NCBI GenBank assembly: GCA_013288485.1
Contig: JABDBW010000003.1
Coordinates: forward strand, 1 to 64,000
Length of the DNA: 64,000 nt
Origin: Bacteroidota bacterium
Lineage (GTDB): Bacteria > Bacteroidota > Bacteroidia > Sphingobacteriales > Sphingobacteriaceae
Direction of reading: 5' to 3'
The notes below the pieces were generated by a model, which was not told the DNA's origin, made no database searches, and saw nothing but the letters and a program-made list of their open reading frames with translations. Both the position numbers and the translations under genes were made by a program. Of the stretch, positions 1 to 19,397 are shown one piece after another (the stretch's first letter is position 1; each line of letters begins with the position of its first letter).

Positions 1-430
1 CCTTAAAGCTATTTAATAACTTAATCAAGAGTGACTTATCTATGACTGTACTTTTGTCTATTTCTTTTAATGATGTTGTAGTTTTAATAATAGTAGTACT
101 TTTCGCTACTACCGCCGTTCCATAGGCTGAAACCATAAACATTTGTACATTCTTGCCACTAATTTGATGCACGTTGACTTTTAACCCGATAATGCAGTTA
201 GCGCCTATTTCAGATGCTTTAGATTGCAAAATTTGGAGTGCGCTATCATTCACAATTTGAAGTTTCTTTTCATAACTGTTAGAACGTCCACCGAATATAT
301 CAGTAAGTCCCGCACTAATATCGCTTAAGAATCCGGCGCCTATTACCACATTTGAAAAGATCGGCTTTAAATAGGTTTCTATATCCCATCCTTGTAATGA
401 TTCAGTTGTCGAAATTAAAATTTTCTTCAT
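1..430 (-). CDS. YbjQ/UPF0145-family protein (3' end outside window)
   Basis: Absent from the ORF track because it runs off the left edge. Read on the minus strand from the ATG at 428-430 it gives an open frame of at least 143 codons beginning MKKILISTTESLQGWDIE and containing GAGFLSDISAGLTDIFGG and IGANCIIGLKVN. These match the YbjQ (UPF0145, putative heavy-metal-binding) fold, small cytosolic proteins of unclear function that usually form pentamers. The family is normally about 105 residues, so this copy has a longer C-terminal tail, Ser/Thr/Lys-rich as far as visible. Function is not inferable beyond the family. Confidence 0.8.
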   Translation of the reverse strand, partial: MKKILISTTESLQGWDIETYLKPIFSNVVIGAGFLSDISAGLTDIFGGRSNSYEKKLQIVNDSALQILQSKASEIGANCIIGLKVNVHQISGKNVQMFMVSAYGTAVVAKSTTIIKTTTSLKEIDKSTVIDKSLLIKLLNSFK

Positions 431-718
431 TTGTAGATATGGTTTAAGTTTAGTAACGCTAATATAAACATCAAATCGAGATTTGAATATCTATTTATAA
501 ATCAATAATTTTTCTGTCCCTCCCCGCTGGCGCAAGTATGCAGCGCAAGCCAAAAGCGCGGTGTACTTGTGCCTATACCAACAAACAGGTAATAATATTG
601 GCACAAGTACGCTTGCCCACTTGCCGCCGCTGCATACTTGCGCCAGCGGTGGTGGTAGGATTTATAATATTGCAAATCCAACTAACTCGTGATTATATTT
701 GACCTGTAATAATTAAAT
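431..718. repeat. Intergenic region with a ~125-bp foldback (inverted repeat)
   Basis: A perfect 21-bp inverted repeat lies at 525-545 and 628-648 (left arm begins CGCTGGCGCAAGTATG). A second nested pair, GTACTTGTGCC at 563-573 and GGCACAAGTAC at 600-610, makes the whole segment a long imperfect hairpin. No ORF is inside. It is GC-rich compared with the flanking AT-rich DNA. It resembles a non-autonomous palindromic repeat (REP/MITE-like); I cannot show other copies in this window. The remaining bases are AT-rich promoter space for the divergent genes on either side. Confidence 0.75.
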
Positions 719-1057
719 ATGGCCTATAACGAACAACTTGCCGATAAAATAAGAGAAGCATTAGCTGACCGTGACTTACCCGACGTAGAAGAAAAGAAAA
801 TGTTTCGCGGAATATGCTTTATGGTAAATGGCAAAATGTGTGTTTGCGCCAGTGGCGATGAAATGCTTTGCCGTATAGGCCCTGCTTATAAAGACGCGCT
901 CGAAAAACCTGGTGTCCGTGGTATGATCCGCAATGGAAAGGCTTTAAAAGATTTTGTATTTGTAAGCGATGAAGCTATGAAAACAAAAACGGAATTTGAT
1001 AATTGGATAGCACAAGCCCTCGCGTTCAATAAATTTGCAAAGGCAACCAAAAAATAA
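719..1057 (+). CDS. TfoX N-terminal domain protein
   Basis: 112-residue protein with the TfoX-N signature: an N-terminal helix (NEQLADKIREAL), then EKKMFRGICFMVNGKMCVCASGD and a LCRIGP strand. Stand-alone TfoX-N proteins of this length are common in Bacteroidota, and their role is uncertain; in gamma-proteobacteria TfoX/Sxy controls competence, but that needs the C-terminal domain, which is missing here. The ATG at 719 directly follows an AT-rich stretch and matches the usual N-terminus (MAYNEQLA). Monocistronic. The family assignment is firm, the function is not. Confidence 0.85.
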   Translation: MAYNEQLADKIREALADRDLPDVEEKKMFRGICFMVNGKMCVCASGDEMLCRIGPAYKDALEKPGVRGMIRNGKALKDFVFVSDEAMKTKTEFDNWIAQALAFNKFAKATKK

Positions 1058-1093
1058 TTTGGATGCTATCACAGAATCTGCGGGGACAGTATG

Positions 1094-1280
1094 TTATTTT
1101 TTAAGTACGAGGCTCAGAAATTCTTCTATGTCAATTACATTGACTTTGGGGAAGTCGATCGACTTTAGAATTTTAAAATGTTGATCATTACTAACAATAA
1201 AATCAGCGGCCCCCACTATAGCAGCATCCGCATACTTCTCGCCTTTGTTGGTGTTGTCACCAACAAAGATTCCTGGAGAA
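1094..1280 (-). pseudogene. C-terminal remnant of a PIN-domain toxin
   Basis: Minus-strand reading ending at the TAA at 1094-1096 gives GEKYADAAIVGAADFIVSND, then QHFKILKSIDFPKVNVIDIEEFLSLVLKK. This is the typical C-terminal half of a PIN-family toxin: a DxxxA helix, an ADFIVSND strand, and a terminal FPKVNVI-x-EEF strand. There is no start codon; the frame hits a stop just upstream, next to the end of the transposase gene, and the catalytic N-terminal half (LDTN motif) is missing. The first codons pass through the palindrome at 1243-1268. I interpret it as a gene truncated by arrival of the neighbouring RAYT element or by later deletion; no N-terminal half is recognisable beyond the element. 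Confidence 0.75.
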
Positions 1281-1284
1281 TAAA

Positions 1285-1812
1285 TTAATCATTAAGATGA
1301 GTTAATAATTCAAATTCATCATACCCGGTTGCATAAAAATTTGCGGAGGAGTATTTATAGTTTTCGGATAAATCTGCTAACTTCCATTTATCCTGCAATG
1401 GGTTATTGTGTATATAATCCAACTTTTGATCAAAAACCGCAGATGTCCATAAGTCAATACTTAATGAATTTCGCTCCCAAAACTGGTATTGCCTGTCTTT
1501 ATCATTTACCAAAAAGTTATTTAGCCTGATGTCAGCAGTATCTGCAAGCCTGAATTTCATTTGTTGTGCCGTGAATTTTAAAAATCGCATTTGTATGTTT
1601 TCCCGCTTAAACCCGTCCTGTATCTGCCAAATTAAATGGATGTGGTTGGGCATTATTACAAAGGCGTATACCACAATACTTTTTTCTTTTTTAAGAAATT
1701 GCAGGCTTTTAATAATAATATCTTTAAATACATCGTCTTTTAGCAAATGCTTCCACTCTAAAATAGTAGCGGTGAAGAATTGTGGATGATAGTCGAAATT
1801 AATTATTGGCAT
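1285..1812 (-). CDS. REP-associated tyrosine transposase (Y1_Tnp, IS200-like)
   Basis: 175 residues. The HUH metal-binding motif is seen as MPNHIHLIW (His57, His59) and the catalytic tyrosine as KLDYIHNNP (about Tyr133), with the FWERNSLSIDL stretch typical of TnpA-REP proteins between them. HUH transposases nick single-stranded DNA at hairpins and form a 5'-phosphotyrosine link. The ORF appears intact, so the enzyme could be active. It lies between REP-like palindromes and beside a PIN-toxin remnant. RAYTs are usually single-copy domesticated genes that spread REP sequences rather than insertion sequences with fixed ends, and no IS ends or target duplications are visible here. Confidence 0.9.
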   Translation of the reverse strand: MPIINFDYHPQFFTATILEWKHLLKDDVFKDIIIKSLQFLKKEKSIVVYAFVIMPNHIHLIWQIQDGFKRENIQMRFLKFTAQQMKFRLADTADIRLNNFLVNDKDRQYQFWERNSLSIDLWTSAVFDQKLDYIHNNPLQDKWKLADLSENYKYSSANFYATGYDEFELLTHLND

Positions 1813-1837
1813 TGTGCTAATTTATAAAATATTGCTG

Positions 1838-1905
1838 CTTGTTGGTGACAACACCAACAAGGGCGGGCAGAAATATTGGTGCTTGTTGGTGACAACACCA
1901 ACAAG
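1838..1905. repeat. Two direct copies of the REP-like palindrome
   Basis: Copies at 1838-1861 and 1882-1905, each 10-bp arms with loop ACAA, followed by the same AAGGGCG flank. They lie just upstream of the transposase start, so they could fold in its 5' leader or serve as transposase binding sites. The inverted partner is at 1243-1268. Confidence 0.85.
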
Positions 1906-2034
1906 GGCGATGACTCACCGCAAAAAACTTCTTCCCCTTATAGTTGTTCCCCTAAAATTTAACCGCTAAAATTGCGTTGTTACATAATTGTTAAACGGCT
2001 ATGATTTTGAGCCATAATTTTACATCTTTGCCGC

Positions 2035-4344
2035 ATGTTCAGACGTATAAAAAACAAATACCTTCGGTACCTCCTCATCTTTATTTACGCCGTAATTATC
2101 TTTTTTTGCTGTATTGAATTAAATTTTTTATGGCTGTTTGGCTATACGCCCGATATGCAGGATATAAAAAACCCAAAATTATCGGTGGGCTCACAAGTGT
2201 ATACGGCCGATGGTAAATTAATTGGCGAATATTACCGGGAGAACCGCTCCCCGGTATCTTATAAAGAGATCTCCCCCAGCCTCGTAAACGCGTTGGTTGC
2301 TACCGAGGATGTTCGTTTTTATAAACATGGCGCGGTTGATTTTTTCTCTTTCTTTACCAGCATTCTTTCAACCGCCAAAGGCGACAAGCGGGGCGGCAGT
2401 ACCATTACCCAGCAACTGGCGAAAAACCTGTATGAAACCCGTAAACGAACTTCGCAGGGCTTATTAAAGCATGTCCCGGTAATCCGCACATTGGTTTTTA
2501 AATGTAAAGAATGGCTAACCGCCTATAAACTGGAACATGTTTACAACAAGCAGGAAATACTTACCTTATACCTGAATACGGTTCCGTTTGGGAATAATTC
2601 GTTCGGTATAAAAACCGCTACTTTAAAGTTTTTTAATAAAACGCCCGATGCGGTTAATCCTGCCGAAGCGGCCACATTAATAGGTATGCTTAAAGCTACT
2701 TCAACTTATAATCCTATTAATAATCCCGATAAGTCTTTAGACCGCCGGAACACGGTATTGAGCCAAATGGAAAAATACAACTATTTAAGTGCGGCCGATT
2801 ATAATACCTATACTAAAATGCCCATCGGCCTCAATTTAAGTTATGTAGAGGACGATTCGCATGGCGACTCGTATATCCGCGAGGCTGTTGAACGCTGGCT
2901 GAAAAAATGGTGCCATGAAAATGATTATAACCTGTATGAAGACGGTTTGAAAATATATACCACCATTGATTCGCGCCTGCAGCAATATGCCGAAGAGGCC
3001 GTGGCTGAAAAAATGAAGATGCTTCAAAAACGTTTTGACGGTATTTGGGGCAAAACAAACCCCTGGCGCGACTCGAAAGGCAAGGAGATAAAGGATTTTT
3101 TACCCAAAGCCGAACAGCATTTGCCCATCTATAAGTTACTGGTAGCCAAATATCATGGCGACATTAACCAAATAAACCAATACTTTGAAAAACCTAAACG
3201 CATGACGGTGTTTACCTGGAACGGCGAAAAGGATACAACATTTTCGAGCGCGGATTCTATAAAATATTATACCCGCATTTTAAATACCGGCATGATGACC
3301 ATTGAACCATCCACCGGGAAAATAAAGGTTTGGGTAGGTGGCATTAATCATAAATATTTTAATTACGACCACGTAAATCAATCAAAACGACAAGCCGGTT
3401 CAACTTTTAAACCCTTTGCCTATTTAACCGCGCTGGATAACGGGTATTCTCCCTGCGATACTTTTATTGACAAGCCGGTATCTATCAAATATAATGATGG
3501 CGGTAAAGACCAGGTTTGGGCGCCAAACAATGCCGATTTTAAGTTCACGTACCAGAAAATGTCATTACGGTGGGCTATGGGGAAATCGGTAAATTCTATC
3601 ACCGCGCAGGTAACCGAGAAAGTTGGGTGGGATAAAATTGTTGATTACGCGCATAAGTGCGGTATTGAGAGTCCGTTAAAATCAGTTCCATCGGTTTCAT
3701 TGGGTTCTAATGATGTGTCGGTGTATGAAATGGTACGCGCCTACAGCACCTTTCTGAACAAAGGTGAACGGGTGGACCCGTTGCTGGTAACAAAAATAAC
3801 CGACCAGAACGGCAATATATTACAGGAGTTTGCCTTAAAAACCGAAAGGGTAATAAGCGAAGAGGTAGCATGGCTAATGTTGTACATGTTCAGGGGTGGA
3901 ATGGAAGAACCGGACGGTACATCGCTGGCTTTATGGGAATACCCCGGCCTGTGGAAAAAAGAGAACCAGATAGGCGGTAAAACAGGTACATCATCTGATT
4001 ATGTTGATGGGTGGTACATGGGTATTACCAAGGACCTGGTAACCGGTATATGGGTAGGCGCCGATGACCGCAGCGTACATTTCACAACATCCGAAAGCGG
4101 CGAGGGTTCGCATACCGCCCTGCCTATTTTTGGCAGTTTTATGCAAAGGGTTTATGCCGATCCGGAATCAGGCTATACTTATGGACTTTTCCCGAAACCG
4201 TGGACAACCATAACGAAAAACTACGATTGCCCTTCGCCAAGGCTCAAGGTTGATACGACTGCGACAGATAGCCTGGATATGCCGGCAGATACTTCCCGGG
4301 GAGAGCCGCTCCCTGAATTAAAACAAGCCGGTATTAACCAATAG
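2035..4344 (+). CDS. Class A penicillin-binding protein (PBP1A type)
   Basis: 769-residue bifunctional peptidoglycan synthase. It has an N-terminal membrane anchor (residues about 8-30), then a GT51 glycosyltransferase domain with EDVRFYKHGAVDF and GGSTITQQLAKN, which polymerises lipid II. The transpeptidase domain follows with the active-site SxxK as GSTFKP (about residue 455), SxN as KSVNS, and KTG as GGKTGTSSD (about 650), which crosslinks stem peptides in the periplasm. Length and motif order are standard and all catalytic motifs are intact. The ATG at 2035 lies a few bases after a ACATCTTTG stretch resembling the Bacteroidota -7 box. Monocistronic or loosely coupled to the next gene (62-bp gap). 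Confidence 0.95.
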   Translation: MFRRIKNKYLRYLLIFIYAVIIFFCCIELNFLWLFGYTPDMQDIKNPKLSVGSQVYTADGKLIGEYYRENRSPVSYKEISPSLVNALVATEDVRFYKHGAVDFFSFFTSILSTAKGDKRGGSTITQQLAKNLYETRKRTSQGLLKHVPVIRTLVFKCKEWLTAYKLEHVYNKQEILTLYLNTVPFGNNSFGIKTATLKFFNKTPDAVNPAEAATLIGMLKATSTYNPINNPDKSLDRRNTVLSQMEKYNYLSAADYNTYTKMPIGLNLSYVEDDSHGDSYIREAVERWLKKWCHENDYNLYEDGLKIYTTIDSRLQQYAEEAVAEKMKMLQKRFDGIWGKTNPWRDSKGKEIKDFLPKAEQHLPIYKLLVAKYHGDINQINQYFEKPKRMTVFTWNGEKDTTFSSADSIKYYTRILNTGMMTIEPSTGKIKVWVGGINHKYFNYDHVNQSKRQAGSTFKPFAYLTALDNGYSPCDTFIDKPVSIKYNDGGKDQVWAPNNADFKFTYQKMSLRWAMGKSVNSITAQVTEKVGWDKIVDYAHKCGIESPLKSVPSVSLGSNDVSVYEMVRAYSTFLNKGERVDPLLVTKITDQNGNILQEFALKTERVISEEVAWLMLYMFRGGMEEPDGTSLALWEYPGLWKKENQIGGKTGTSSDYVDGWYMGITKDLVTGIWVGADDRSVHFTTSESGEGSHTALPIFGSFMQRVYADPESGYTYGLFPKPWTTITKNYDCPSPRLKVDTTATDSLDMPADTSRGEPLPELKQAGINQ

Positions 4345-4405
4345 CAAATATTAAACTTTTTATACTGATGCATTTATTTAAATTAGCGGTGACATATTTT
4401 AATTT

Positions 4406-15416: not shown

Positions 15417-18400
15417 TTACCGGGTCAGATCAATCAACATATTGACCAATAGCTTTGCAGCAATGGGGTCAGTTCGGCTTTTTTCTGTTAATACTTCCGA
15501 TAATATGATCGTCCCGTTATCTTTTATTTTTATTATCGGGTATCCCCTTATGCCGTCTAAATGAGCCATTCTTTCCTCAATTTGCCCCTGCAAATAGCCA
15601 TGTACCTTAGTGAACGATGCCGGTGCCTCAACTTTGGGATCGCGGGTAATACGGAAAGCGTCAGCAATTACTGAAGGCATCTCCCTTTTATTATTGGTAA
15701 ATAAACGGGTATCTAAAGGTTCTATACCGTTAAATATTGCTGATTCGGGAATATCCATACTCATAACCTCGCCGGCGCTTTTTATAATTCCGCGTACATA
15801 TTCAGGGTAAAGCTGGTGCGCGTAGTTGCCACACCGGGTTAATAATATCTTTGCCCCCCGCCCTATTAATTCCCTGATCTGCCTGGTTTCTGTGGCATTC
15901 GTGTTTACAGAATCTAAACCCGACAAAATATATACATCAGCTTTTTGTTTAAGCAGATCAGCCAATGACGCCGAAGATGTGTATTTGATACCCAGGAAAT
16001 CAAGTGATGGGGAAACCATTTTATTAAGGTCAAGTACTGCAATCTTTTTTCCGGATAATTTATTGGCATTTTCAAAGTCTTTCTTCACCAACAAAACATC
16101 ATAACTATTTTCTGAAACTGTTTTGCCATTTTCAACTAATTTTAATATCAATTTGCCTTCTATTCTTGAGGTGGGTAAATTTTGTGGGACTATAATTTGA
16201 GGATCAACCCAGTACCGGGTATAATGTTCAACAGCCGGTATAGCTAAACTACCCTGGGTTATTTTATTACCGGTATTATTTACCAATTGCCATTGTAAAG
16301 TGGAAGCCTGCAAAACTGAACCATCCTCTTTATCATTTATAATACATATACGGGTTGATAGCGGAGCGCCCGCATAAAAATGCCTTCCCCATAATTCAGC
16401 TGAGATCAGCACCGGTTGCAAAGCATTTTTCATCGCATAATATACCGGAAATGACTTTATTTTATTGGTGAGATAAGAATTAGTGAACCAGGTTACCAAT
16501 GAAAAATGAAGTTCTCCGGCAGCTTTGTCATTACTTCTGCGAAGCGCTTCGGCAAGCTCTTTAGTATTAAAGGCTTCTATCTTTGAAAAATAATAAGGAT
16601 CATTATATTCATAACCATATTTACCAACCAACGCTGAAGAGGTTTGATGAACATAATTATAAAAACGGGTAGGGTGCCCGGTTTCGTCTGTATAACCTGT
16701 TGAAAGTTCCTGGCTTATTAATGGTCGCCCCGGATTTTTGAACCTTTTTTGCCATTCGCCGTTAAAATATTCGAACAATGAATTATCATACCAGTTGATG
16801 TAAGAGTGTATATCATCAATATCACCATCATCAATGTCGGTATAAAAATCTGCACCGAATCTTTTAGTATTACGCCTGTAGTTAGAGTCGAAAACGATAG
16901 ATCGTGTAGGATCAATAACCCGCATTTGTTTTACTACGTCTGATATGATCTTCATTTTTACTTTTGCACGCGCTATATCCGGATCATTATCATAAAATTT
17001 CATTTCGTTATTTACCGTCCACAGTAGTAACGACGGGTGATTTCGGTACTTTTTCAGCAGGCCAAAAAATTCATCTTTCCAGAGATCGACAAGCTTTTGA
17101 TCGGGCATACTGCTTTGCAAAAACAGCCAGGTCCAGGTACCCTCATAGCTTACGCCAATGCCATTCTCGTCCGAAGCATTTAACCAGGTCTCATTATAAG
17201 GTACAGTATGGCTTCGTGTCACCATAACATTACCGGCTTTCATCAGCTTGCAAAATTTATCAGCGAGCGCCGAATCATTGGGCGCCAGCGGCATGGCGGT
17301 TTGATTAGCGCCCCGCAACCAGTATTTTTTACCATTTAAATAAAAGTAATCGCCAATTGCTTTAAAGGTTCGGAAGCCCGAACGTATATTTTTTTTATCT
17401 ATCGCTTTACTATCTTTTGCAAGCAGAGAAAATTTGAAATTATATAAATTGGGGTGCTCGGGCGACCATAGTTTTGGCTTTAACCCGGTTATGGTATAAG
17501 TAAATGTTTTTTCTTCGCCCGGCTGCAGTTCTAATTGTTTAAATGATATGTCTTTATATAAAGCCTCTTTTAATTTAGCGCCGTTGATAGCAGTTGAAAG
17601 TGAAAATGCCTGCCTTGTTTTGTTGTAATTTTTTATGGTAACATCAATATCAGCGCCGTTAAGGTTAGGTTTAATAAACACATCCTCAATTCTAACCGGA
17701 TCGGTAATTATTAATGATACCGGCTGCCATATTCCTCCCGGGTCGTCACCAAACATACCGTGGGCCAGGTCTTTCAGCATTTTTTCTGTTACTTCTACAC
17801 TCACAGCAACGTCAACTATTTTATTGGCATCCTTTATATTTTTAATATAGTTTTTGCCAACTTTTACAGCGACAAGGTTCTTGCCCGGCTTTAACAGCCC
17901 GGTAACATCCAGCTTAATATCACCGAACATGCCTATATGTGTACCCGCTTTTATGCCATTTACCCACACTTCGGCTACTTTTGATATGGCATCAAAAGTT
18001 AATTGCAGGTGTTTACCTTTTATATTTTCGGGTAATTGTACCCATTGCCGGTACCAGCCCGAATTTGTTTTTTTATAATCAAAAGTATAGGCTTCGCAGC
18101 GATCTGTTTCCTTTTGATAATAGTTGTCTGCCACACCCTTGCTGCCCGAATTATATCGTTCGCCATGCAGCCAAACCCTTATCGGGTTCCAAAAATCAGG
18201 CACATGCATTACGTGCCAGTTATTGTCGGCATGGCCGGGTGATACGGCCTGCGCATCATCTTCTGTTTCATAGTCGGGCGAAAAAAGCCATTTGCCATCC
18301 AACGATATTGTTGTGCGCTTACTATTAACAGTTGGGATAGTTATGGGTTTATAGGTTGCCCGTTGCTGTTTACGCAAGGTCTCTTTATCCAACGGGGGTA

Positions 18401-19043
18401 CGGCATATTCCTTTACGGGTAAGGATAATATTTCATTTTTATTGAGCGATTGTATTGACATGTTACCAAACTCATTGGTTATCCAGCTGCCGCCTAATGT
18501 AACTTTGCCGGCAGGTGCCAGGTTTGATGATTTATCAACAACATCAATACGGGGCAGGCTTTCATTATTCATAAAAACACGTATCCGGCTACCGGCAAGC
18601 TGTATCCTGAAATTATACCATTTGCCGGGAGTCGGCTGAAAATCCAACTCCCGCAAAGCCAGAAAATCATCTCCGCCCATATAACCAAGTCTTGCCAGGT
18701 ATAAAAATTTTTGCATCCCCCCCTTTAGCATTAACAGGTAACGGTCGTCACGGTTGGCGGCCCGAAATCCCGCACATATCTGCACCTGGTTTGCTGCATC
18801 AGGTACCCTGGCCCTGAATTTCACTTCGTAGTCGGCCCAGTTATTTTCACCAAAACACAGGTAGGCATCCTTTGTGGTTAAAACCGAGTTTTCAATCTTA
18901 CTTATCCCCCGCCCCACTTTATCATATTTCGAAGTTTGCGTGTCAAACTTTTCTGTAAGTTTAAATTCAGATTGCGCCTGAACATTTGATATGATGAACA
19001 GGAATAAAAGCGAATTGGATAAGCGATAAATATGTTTTTTCAT
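15417..19043 (-). CDS. Large secreted glycoside hydrolase family 2 enzyme
   Basis: 1208 residues from the ATG at 19041-19043; the track adds 14 residues before this MKKHIYRLSNS signal peptide. Order: signal peptide, a concanavalin-like domain (about 25-200, ENNWADYEVKFRARVPD, as in DUF1080/LamG), the GH2 sugar-binding jelly roll (about 245-420), an immunoglobulin-like domain, and the GH2 TIM barrel with acid/base Glu in WTVNNEMKF (about 678) and nucleophile Glu in ISQELSTGY (about 776). The C-terminal part has a GATase-like segment (VYILSGLDSVN). Probably hydrolyses beta-galactosides, glucuronides or mannosides in the periplasm; substrate undetermined. No SusC/SusD pair is adjacent, so it is not in an obvious utilisation locus. 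Confidence 0.9.
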   Translation of the reverse strand: MKKHIYRLSNSLLFLFIISNVQAQSEFKLTEKFDTQTSKYDKVGRGISKIENSVLTTKDAYLCFGENNWADYEVKFRARVPDAANQVQICAGFRAANRDDRYLLMLKGGMQKFLYLARLGYMGGDDFLALRELDFQPTPGKWYNFRIQLAGSRIRVFMNNESLPRIDVVDKSSNLAPAGKVTLGGSWITNEFGNMSIQSLNKNEILSLPVKEYAVPPLDKETLRKQQRATYKPITIPTVNSKRTTISLDGKWLFSPDYETEDDAQAVSPGHADNNWHVMHVPDFWNPIRVWLHGERYNSGSKGVADNYYQKETDRCEAYTFDYKKTNSGWYRQWVQLPENIKGKHLQLTFDAISKVAEVWVNGIKAGTHIGMFGDIKLDVTGLLKPGKNLVAVKVGKNYIKNIKDANKIVDVAVSVEVTEKMLKDLAHGMFGDDPGGIWQPVSLIITDPVRIEDVFIKPNLNGADIDVTIKNYNKTRQAFSLSTAINGAKLKEALYKDISFKQLELQPGEEKTFTYTITGLKPKLWSPEHPNLYNFKFSLLAKDSKAIDKKNIRSGFRTFKAIGDYFYLNGKKYWLRGANQTAMPLAPNDSALADKFCKLMKAGNVMVTRSHTVPYNETWLNASDENGIGVSYEGTWTWLFLQSSMPDQKLVDLWKDEFFGLLKKYRNHPSLLLWTVNNEMKFYDNDPDIARAKVKMKIISDVVKQMRVIDPTRSIVFDSNYRRNTKRFGADFYTDIDDGDIDDIHSYINWYDNSLFEYFNGEWQKRFKNPGRPLISQELSTGYTDETGHPTRFYNYVHQTSSALVGKYGYEYNDPYYFSKIEAFNTKELAEALRRSNDKAAGELHFSLVTWFTNSYLTNKIKSFPVYYAMKNALQPVLISAELWGRHFYAGAPLSTRICIINDKEDGSVLQASTLQWQLVNNTGNKITQGSLAIPAVEHYTRYWVDPQIIVPQNLPTSRIEGKLILKLVENGKTVSENSYDVLLVKKDFENANKLSGKKIAVLDLNKMVSPSLDFLGIKYTSSASLADLLKQKADVYILSGLDSVNTNATETRQIRELIGRGAKILLTRCGNYAHQLYPEYVRGIIKSAGEVMSMDIPESAIFNGIEPLDTRLFTNNKREMPSVIADAFRITRDPKVEAPASFTKVHGYLQGQIEERMAHLDGIRGYPIIKIKDNGTIILSEVLTEKSRTDPIAAKLLVNMLIDLTR

Positions 19044-19397
19044 TTTAATTATAGGTATTATGTTCTGATTTGCAGAATGCAGCAAACAAACTTAGAAATA
19101 ATATGCTAACGTTGTTATCAATATATTCAACCTTATCTGTTTCGGTTTCGTATAAGGAAAATATCAAAGCTAATAGCTGGCGTGTCGGCAACCTTTCTTC
19201 TATGTATAAATTATGTTGAATTCATGATTTTAACATAATTGAGACTTAATTGATTAGACAATATTGTAAAACCATATTATAAATATTAACAGGTAATTAA
19301 TTATAATTGAAGATAATTTAATAAATACAGGCAAGTGTAAATTAACCTTCTGTGTTTTTTAATTATATTCAAACATTAATTGCAAGCCGTTAAACCT
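19044..19397. other. AT-rich divergent intergenic region with one inverted repeat
   Basis: No gene is visible. An inverted repeat AATTATGTT / AACATAATT lies at 19209-19217 and 19232-19240, roughly midway between the GH2 gene and the T9SS locus, and may be a regulator site. The rest is AT-rich promoter-like DNA. I cannot place a confident -7 box. Confidence 0.5.

Follow-up and report, generated by a model that had tools for sequence, protein, structure and literature searches.

The locus near the start of this stretch raises the question of whether a transposase gene and the hairpins on either side of it belong together, as a REP family with its own REP-associated tyrosine transposase (RAYT). 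The window, which is the whole 64,000-nt stretch analysed, comes from a soil bacterium of the genus Mucilaginibacter, as identified by way of homologous contigs. It contains three hairpins of the pattern TTGTTGGTG-TTGT-CACCAACAA, with the same arms and with stems of 10-11 bp, distributed on either side of the RAYT reading frame (Table 1). The original prediction described three same-armed palindromes with 4-nt loops around an intact HUH transposase, the left one inverted relative to the right two, and the coordinates, the ORF and the strand reading confirm this. The sequence GCC-TTTGTTGGTG-TTGT lies on the plus strand in the left hairpin and on the minus strand in the right two, so that the GCC foot points outward at both sides of the gene.

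Table 1. Features of the RAYT locus, in window coordinates
Feature	Position	Strand	Description
PIN-domain (VapC-like) gene, C-terminal 49 codons	1097..1243	-	Cut exactly at the left REP; intact homologues in G014 and G005
REP copy 1	1241..1268	+	Downstream of RAYT; GCC foot 1241-1243, hairpin 1243-1268, loop TTGT 1254-1257
RAYT (TnpA_REP-like HUH/Y1 transposase), 175 aa	1285..1812	-	Intact ORF; based on ORF, NCBIfam, AF2 fold and homologue alignment
39-nt direct repeat with REP copies 2 and 3	1827..1909 (1827-1865, 1871-1909)	.	97% identical, 44-nt period
REP copy 2	1838..1864	-	Upstream of RAYT; hairpin 1838-1861, GCC foot (minus strand) 1862-1864
REP copy 3	1882..1908	-	Upstream of RAYT; hairpin 1882-1905, GCC foot (minus strand) 1906-1908

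REP copy 1 has a hairpin of 26 nt with an 11-bp stem and a 4-nt loop, where C1243 can be counted either as part of the foot or as the 11th base pair. REP copies 2 and 3 are 24 nt each, with 10-bp stems and 4-nt loops, and copy 3 is a tandem duplicate of copy 2. Folded as single-stranded DNA, each of the three hairpins is better than 200/200 dinucleotide shuffles (z -4.3 to -7.3). The common flank had been read as CGCC; the GCC part stands as a conserved foot, but the position separating GCC from TTGTTGG belongs to the stem, as its variable bottom pair.

The protein encoded between the hairpins is a RAYT. Its HUH motif is H57-I-H59 and the predicted catalytic residue, Tyr133, lies within YIHNNP; H57, H59 and Y133 are invariant among 26 homologues. 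The NCBIfam model for REP-associated tyrosine transposases, NF047646, scores 67 bits (E 1.4e-18), which is below its curated cut-off of 80, and a Pfam search with the protein gave no match. The AlphaFold (AF2) model from 26 homologues has a pLDDT of 92. Among PDB folds the model is closest to 4er8, the complex of TnpA_REP with a REP hairpin (E 7e-9, at a protein identity of about 16%), and the next matches are the IS608 and ISDra2 transposases. The NF047646 score, the match to 4er8 and the three invariant residues together identify the protein, in agreement with the earlier reading of the HUH transposase as a RAYT.

In the original prediction, a genome without any additional hairpin copies was named as a result that would speak against it, and this is what the source assembly gives. 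A genome-wide search of the source assembly (≤2 mismatches) found exactly three, all of them those of the window, and the reversed-pattern control gave 0 matches. This assembly is a MAG of 2.5 Mb and is 62% complete, and dispersal was therefore examined in relatives. For the same reason the missing copies do not refute a family, since Mucilaginibacter genomes with a close RAYT all have 3-42 hairpin copies (18/18, median 18.5). Across 60 congeners the number per genome is 0-42, and the median is only 3.5 in the 42 congeners that lack a close RAYT (MWU p=1.8e-5 against the 18 RAYT-bearing genomes). Hairpins of the window type flank each of 18 close homologues within the genus, although at L020 on one side only. 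The close RAYT is usually single in a genome; G033 has two. With just three copies in its own assembly, the pattern might be put down to chance palindromes beside a transposase. This can for practical purposes be dismissed, as the reversed control is 0 here and 0-2 in relatives holding up to 42 copies, and the hairpins recur at homologues across genera.

Some of these loci have features of their own. At L137 in G019 (G019:C2:128700-132900) there is local amplification at the RAYT, with a nine-hairpin array of ~115-nt repeats, and the two RAYT copies of G033 (L228 and L010) are about 2.8 kb apart. Present-day presence of RAYT and repeats is not strictly coupled, since congeners such as G044 have many REPINs but no close RAYT. 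G044 has 34 copies (≤3 mismatches), many of them in clean REPINs (e.g. C9:373478-373690), and a close RAYT was looked for in this 99% complete genome and is absent. It is an orphan REPIN population that could serve to study decay or trans-mobilisation.

Many of the copies in the congeners are inverted pairs with the GCC feet outward (REPINs), often of 60-100 nt; measured arm to arm they span 67-109 nt. Neighbours within 130 nt in five genomes are feet-outward in 24 cases, feet-inward in 9 and in the same orientation in 8; G010 has mostly same-orientation arrays, which are not REPINs. Of 44 hairpin clusters in the congeners, none lies inside a stop-free frame of >450 bp, whereas 86% of control positions do, so the hairpins are intergenic. 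The 22-nt core contains no stop codon, so this result is not built in. Both the intergenic enrichment and the pairing that the original prediction proposed to look for are thus found in the congeners. Inverted REP doublets with a spacer are dispersed there as a unit; in the window, this arrangement occurs only around the RAYT gene itself.

The ends of the unit can be read from dispersed REPINs that have a common spacer. Identity among these is 93-100% for the first 4 positions on the outer side, comprising the stem base and GCC, and beyond them it falls to about 0.3-0.7. The drop just outside the foot shows that the spreading unit is GCC-hairpin-spacer-hairpin-GGC. The foot is conserved on one side of the hairpin only (G 80%, C 90%, C 95%; n=309 copies), and in 86% of the same copies the base beside it has a pairing partner on the opposite side. 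It is seen as CGCC or TGCC, and differs from the GT[AG]G foot of the GTAG REP superfamily. In a larger copy set the bottom stem pair is Watson-Crick in 84%, against 31% expected. Where two arm positions have changed, the changes are compensatory in 67 of 89 copies (chance, 2%), counted as copies and not as independent events. The hairpin itself is conserved, and not its sequence alone. In alignment A3 two-sided changes are seen in 9 of 10 pairs, but those hairpins were chosen for being palindromic, and the 67/89 comparison is the unbiased one.

The hairpins might by now serve the host, for example as transcript ends, in mRNA stability or as nucleoid sites, with the RAYT a relic or domesticated and mobility stopped. 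Their strictly intergenic location would suit such a role, as would the clean REPINs kept in G044 without a close RAYT and one REPIN that is common to the sister species G022 and G119 and absent from G123. We nevertheless consider this unlikely. Dispersed copies differ between sister species, and stems and feet remain matched to the RAYT clade. The flank logo has no T tract, which rules out an intrinsic terminator, and an Rfam scan of window positions 1-4400 found nothing; the hairpins are therefore not ordinary terminators.

A different possibility is that the locus is a plain insertion sequence of the IS200/IS605 type, with the hairpins as its ends and the whole element moving with its transposase. 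The HUH/Y1 fold agrees with this, and so does the position of the RAYT, whose locus changes between most species, with neighbours common to sister species only. The RAYT element also adjoins the truncated PIN gene. The ~85 N-terminal residues of that gene were not found elsewhere in the 62% complete assembly, and a simple insertion without loss is for that reason unproven. The comparisons between sister species weigh against the REP-family reading in one respect, the lack of a clean empty site. No base-exact empty site was recovered for the REPIN compared in G022, G119 and G123, where the intergenic DNA is too diverged, and no clean empty sites were recovered at the sister RAYT loci L150/L155 and L151/L154. 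G022 has copies lacking in G119 and G123 at two further sites, with junctions that are not clean. Autonomous multicopy elements with a TnpA_IS200 profile are not what is seen here: the IS200 model NF033573, whose cut-off is 55 bits, gives the RAYT 12.9, and there is usually one close RAYT per genome. The hairpins outnumber the gene and mostly occur without it, and the ends are inverted REPs with outward feet and not distinct left and right ends. The insertion-sequence explanation is thus very improbable.

The pairing of hairpin type and RAYT clade extends beyond close homologues. In Pontibacter, Roseivirga, Ekhidna and others, RAYTs with 48-60% identity have hairpins of the same kind beside them, and Ignavibacteria have a GGTC...GACC version of the hairpin with a CCCC foot. 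At some loci of this cross-genus flank scan (Pontibacter, Roseivirga, Ekhidna, Ignavibacteria and others) a repeated hairpin was not found. Several Mucilaginibacter genomes have a second RAYT of another clade with its own hairpin, which is GTTGCCGTG-TCCT in G013, G017 and G027, GTGGCTGTG-TCCC in G049 and TCGTCGGTG-TCCC in G050. Over the 13 sites compared, the hairpins of co-resident RAYTs show 4-8 differences. Compared with the hairpin of the closest RAYT from a different genome, there are 0-2 differences in 8 of 10 cases. Of 100 genomes, four contain GTTGCCGTG hairpins, and three of those four have the matching RAYT clade. Those of the TTGTCTGTG type are commonest in G002 and G046, both with the matching RAYT, and occur too in genomes where it was not seen. 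The Mantel correlation between RAYT and hairpin (rho 0.63-0.65) partly reflects shared descent and is not taken alone as proof. These comparisons support the view that hairpin type tracks RAYT clade, also inside single genomes, which is the co-variation anticipated in the original prediction. The wider proposal of a REP family with its own RAYT is supported at the level of the genus, by multicopy, intergenic, inverted pairs with clade-matched hairpins.

Other repeats of the same general kind are present in the source genome and genus. Window positions 524-649 hold a 126-nt inverted-repeat element with CCGCTGGCGCAAGTATGCAGCG arms, which is a lone REPIN-like member of a second repeat family. The same assembly has a second RAYT, broken and of another type (G000:C37:18574-18963), which is flanked by half-copies of the CCGCTGGCGCAAGTATGCAGCG repeat at 18368-18421 and 19021-19083; more pieces are on C69 and C12. 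A third hairpin type, TTGTCTGTG-TCCT-CACAGACAA, has 3 perfect copies in the assembly (C30:23637, C54:8588 and C62:12364). It is typical of another RAYT clade, and that RAYT was not seen in the assembly. A more distant RAYT group in the same genus (L032-L034, L229 and L230; about 35% identity) has 3-nt-loop hairpins of AAGCTGNAAGCTT or CAGTTGCAAACTG types at its flanks, which makes a further pairing of RAYT and hairpin.

TnpA_REP subclass 2.6 (Quentin et al. 2018, PMC6006769), which corresponds to RAYT group 5 of Bertels et al. 2017, is dominated by Bacteroidetes. Its proteins are about 179 aa with NH[LIV]H and YIH[QN]NP signatures, and their flanking hairpins lack GT[AG]G and have copies elsewhere in the host genomes. 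The main text of that paper terms these hairpins just 'atypical' and gives no consensus (PMC6006769). The window RAYT, from a Bacteroidota genus, has N56-H-I-H59 and Y133-IHNNP, and its hairpins also lack GT[AG]G, with genome copies seen in the congeners. By these signatures it appears to fit subclass 2.6/group 5, except for Trp-Glu in place of Trp-Gln: PMC6006769 lists WQ in its table, whereas the window protein has W112-E113 aligned to E. coli W94-Q95. The sister clade L028-L030 carries WQ. This kind of element is already published for Bacteroidetes. The GCC foot, the boundaries of the unit and the data on clade-specific covariation are new, and the 10-bp stem, TTNT loop and REPIN architecture also go beyond the subclass description. 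A literature search, with supplementary tables outside its coverage, found no paper describing the GCC foot, REPIN unit or hairpin code of this RAYT lineage.

REPINs were defined as two inverted REPs with a spacer that form a dispersed intergenic unit tied to a specific RAYT (Bertels & Rainey 2011, PMC3116915). The elements here agree in each of these respects, but copy number is low (tens, not hundreds), the spacer is variable and the foot is GCC and not GTAG or GTGG. In the GTAG REPs and REPtrons of Gammaproteobacteria a one-sided 4-base tag lies at the hairpin foot and the RAYT is flanked by its own REPs (PMC2817692, PMC3733652). The one-sided foot tag, the self-flanked RAYT and the best fold match to 4er8 are common ground with these, whereas the (C/T)GCC foot, AT-rich stem and 4-nt loop set the present elements apart. 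IS200/IS605 elements such as IS608 and ISDra2 resemble the locus in their HUH/Y1 fold and hairpin ends; unlike them, it is not multicopy, its ends are inverted and symmetrical, and it has many non-autonomous hairpin copies.

The locus is very probably a REPtron, in which a single-copy RAYT goes with cognate REP hairpins and the REPIN is copied as a unit to new intergenic sites, its GCC/GGC ends included. The mechanism is modelled on TnpA_REP and the IS200/IS605 transposases. What the RAYT binds is most likely the single-stranded form of the 10-bp, TTNT-looped hairpin. It would read the unpaired 5' GCC foot, which may act as the cleavage guide, and would nick at or near GCC via Tyr133. The REPs would act as inverted pairs with their feet outward (about 70-105 nt), so that a whole REPIN may be cut out or copied and then joined at a new intergenic site. 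Around the window RAYT, too, the REPs have their feet outward. By this analogy the movement would be driven by the RAYT, and the system may be active at present.

It is possible, though somewhat doubtful, that throughout Bacteroidota one RAYT lineage has kept the single GTTGTTGGTG-TTNT hairpin together with a GCC foot, that Ignavibacteria have a relative of it, and that another mode of foot reading here replaces the GTAG code. Sister RAYTs in the same genomes have hairpin codes of their own, and the specificity code could then be solved by covariation alone. REP and REPIN biology is founded on GTAG-type elements of Gammaproteobacteria. In the Bacteroidota counterpart the hairpin, the foot, the boundaries and several orthogonal RAYT-hairpin pairs are directly readable, often side by side in one genome. 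In these harmless soil bacteria, such pairs make the recognition of REPs by RAYTs, and the movement of REPINs in trans, directly testable.
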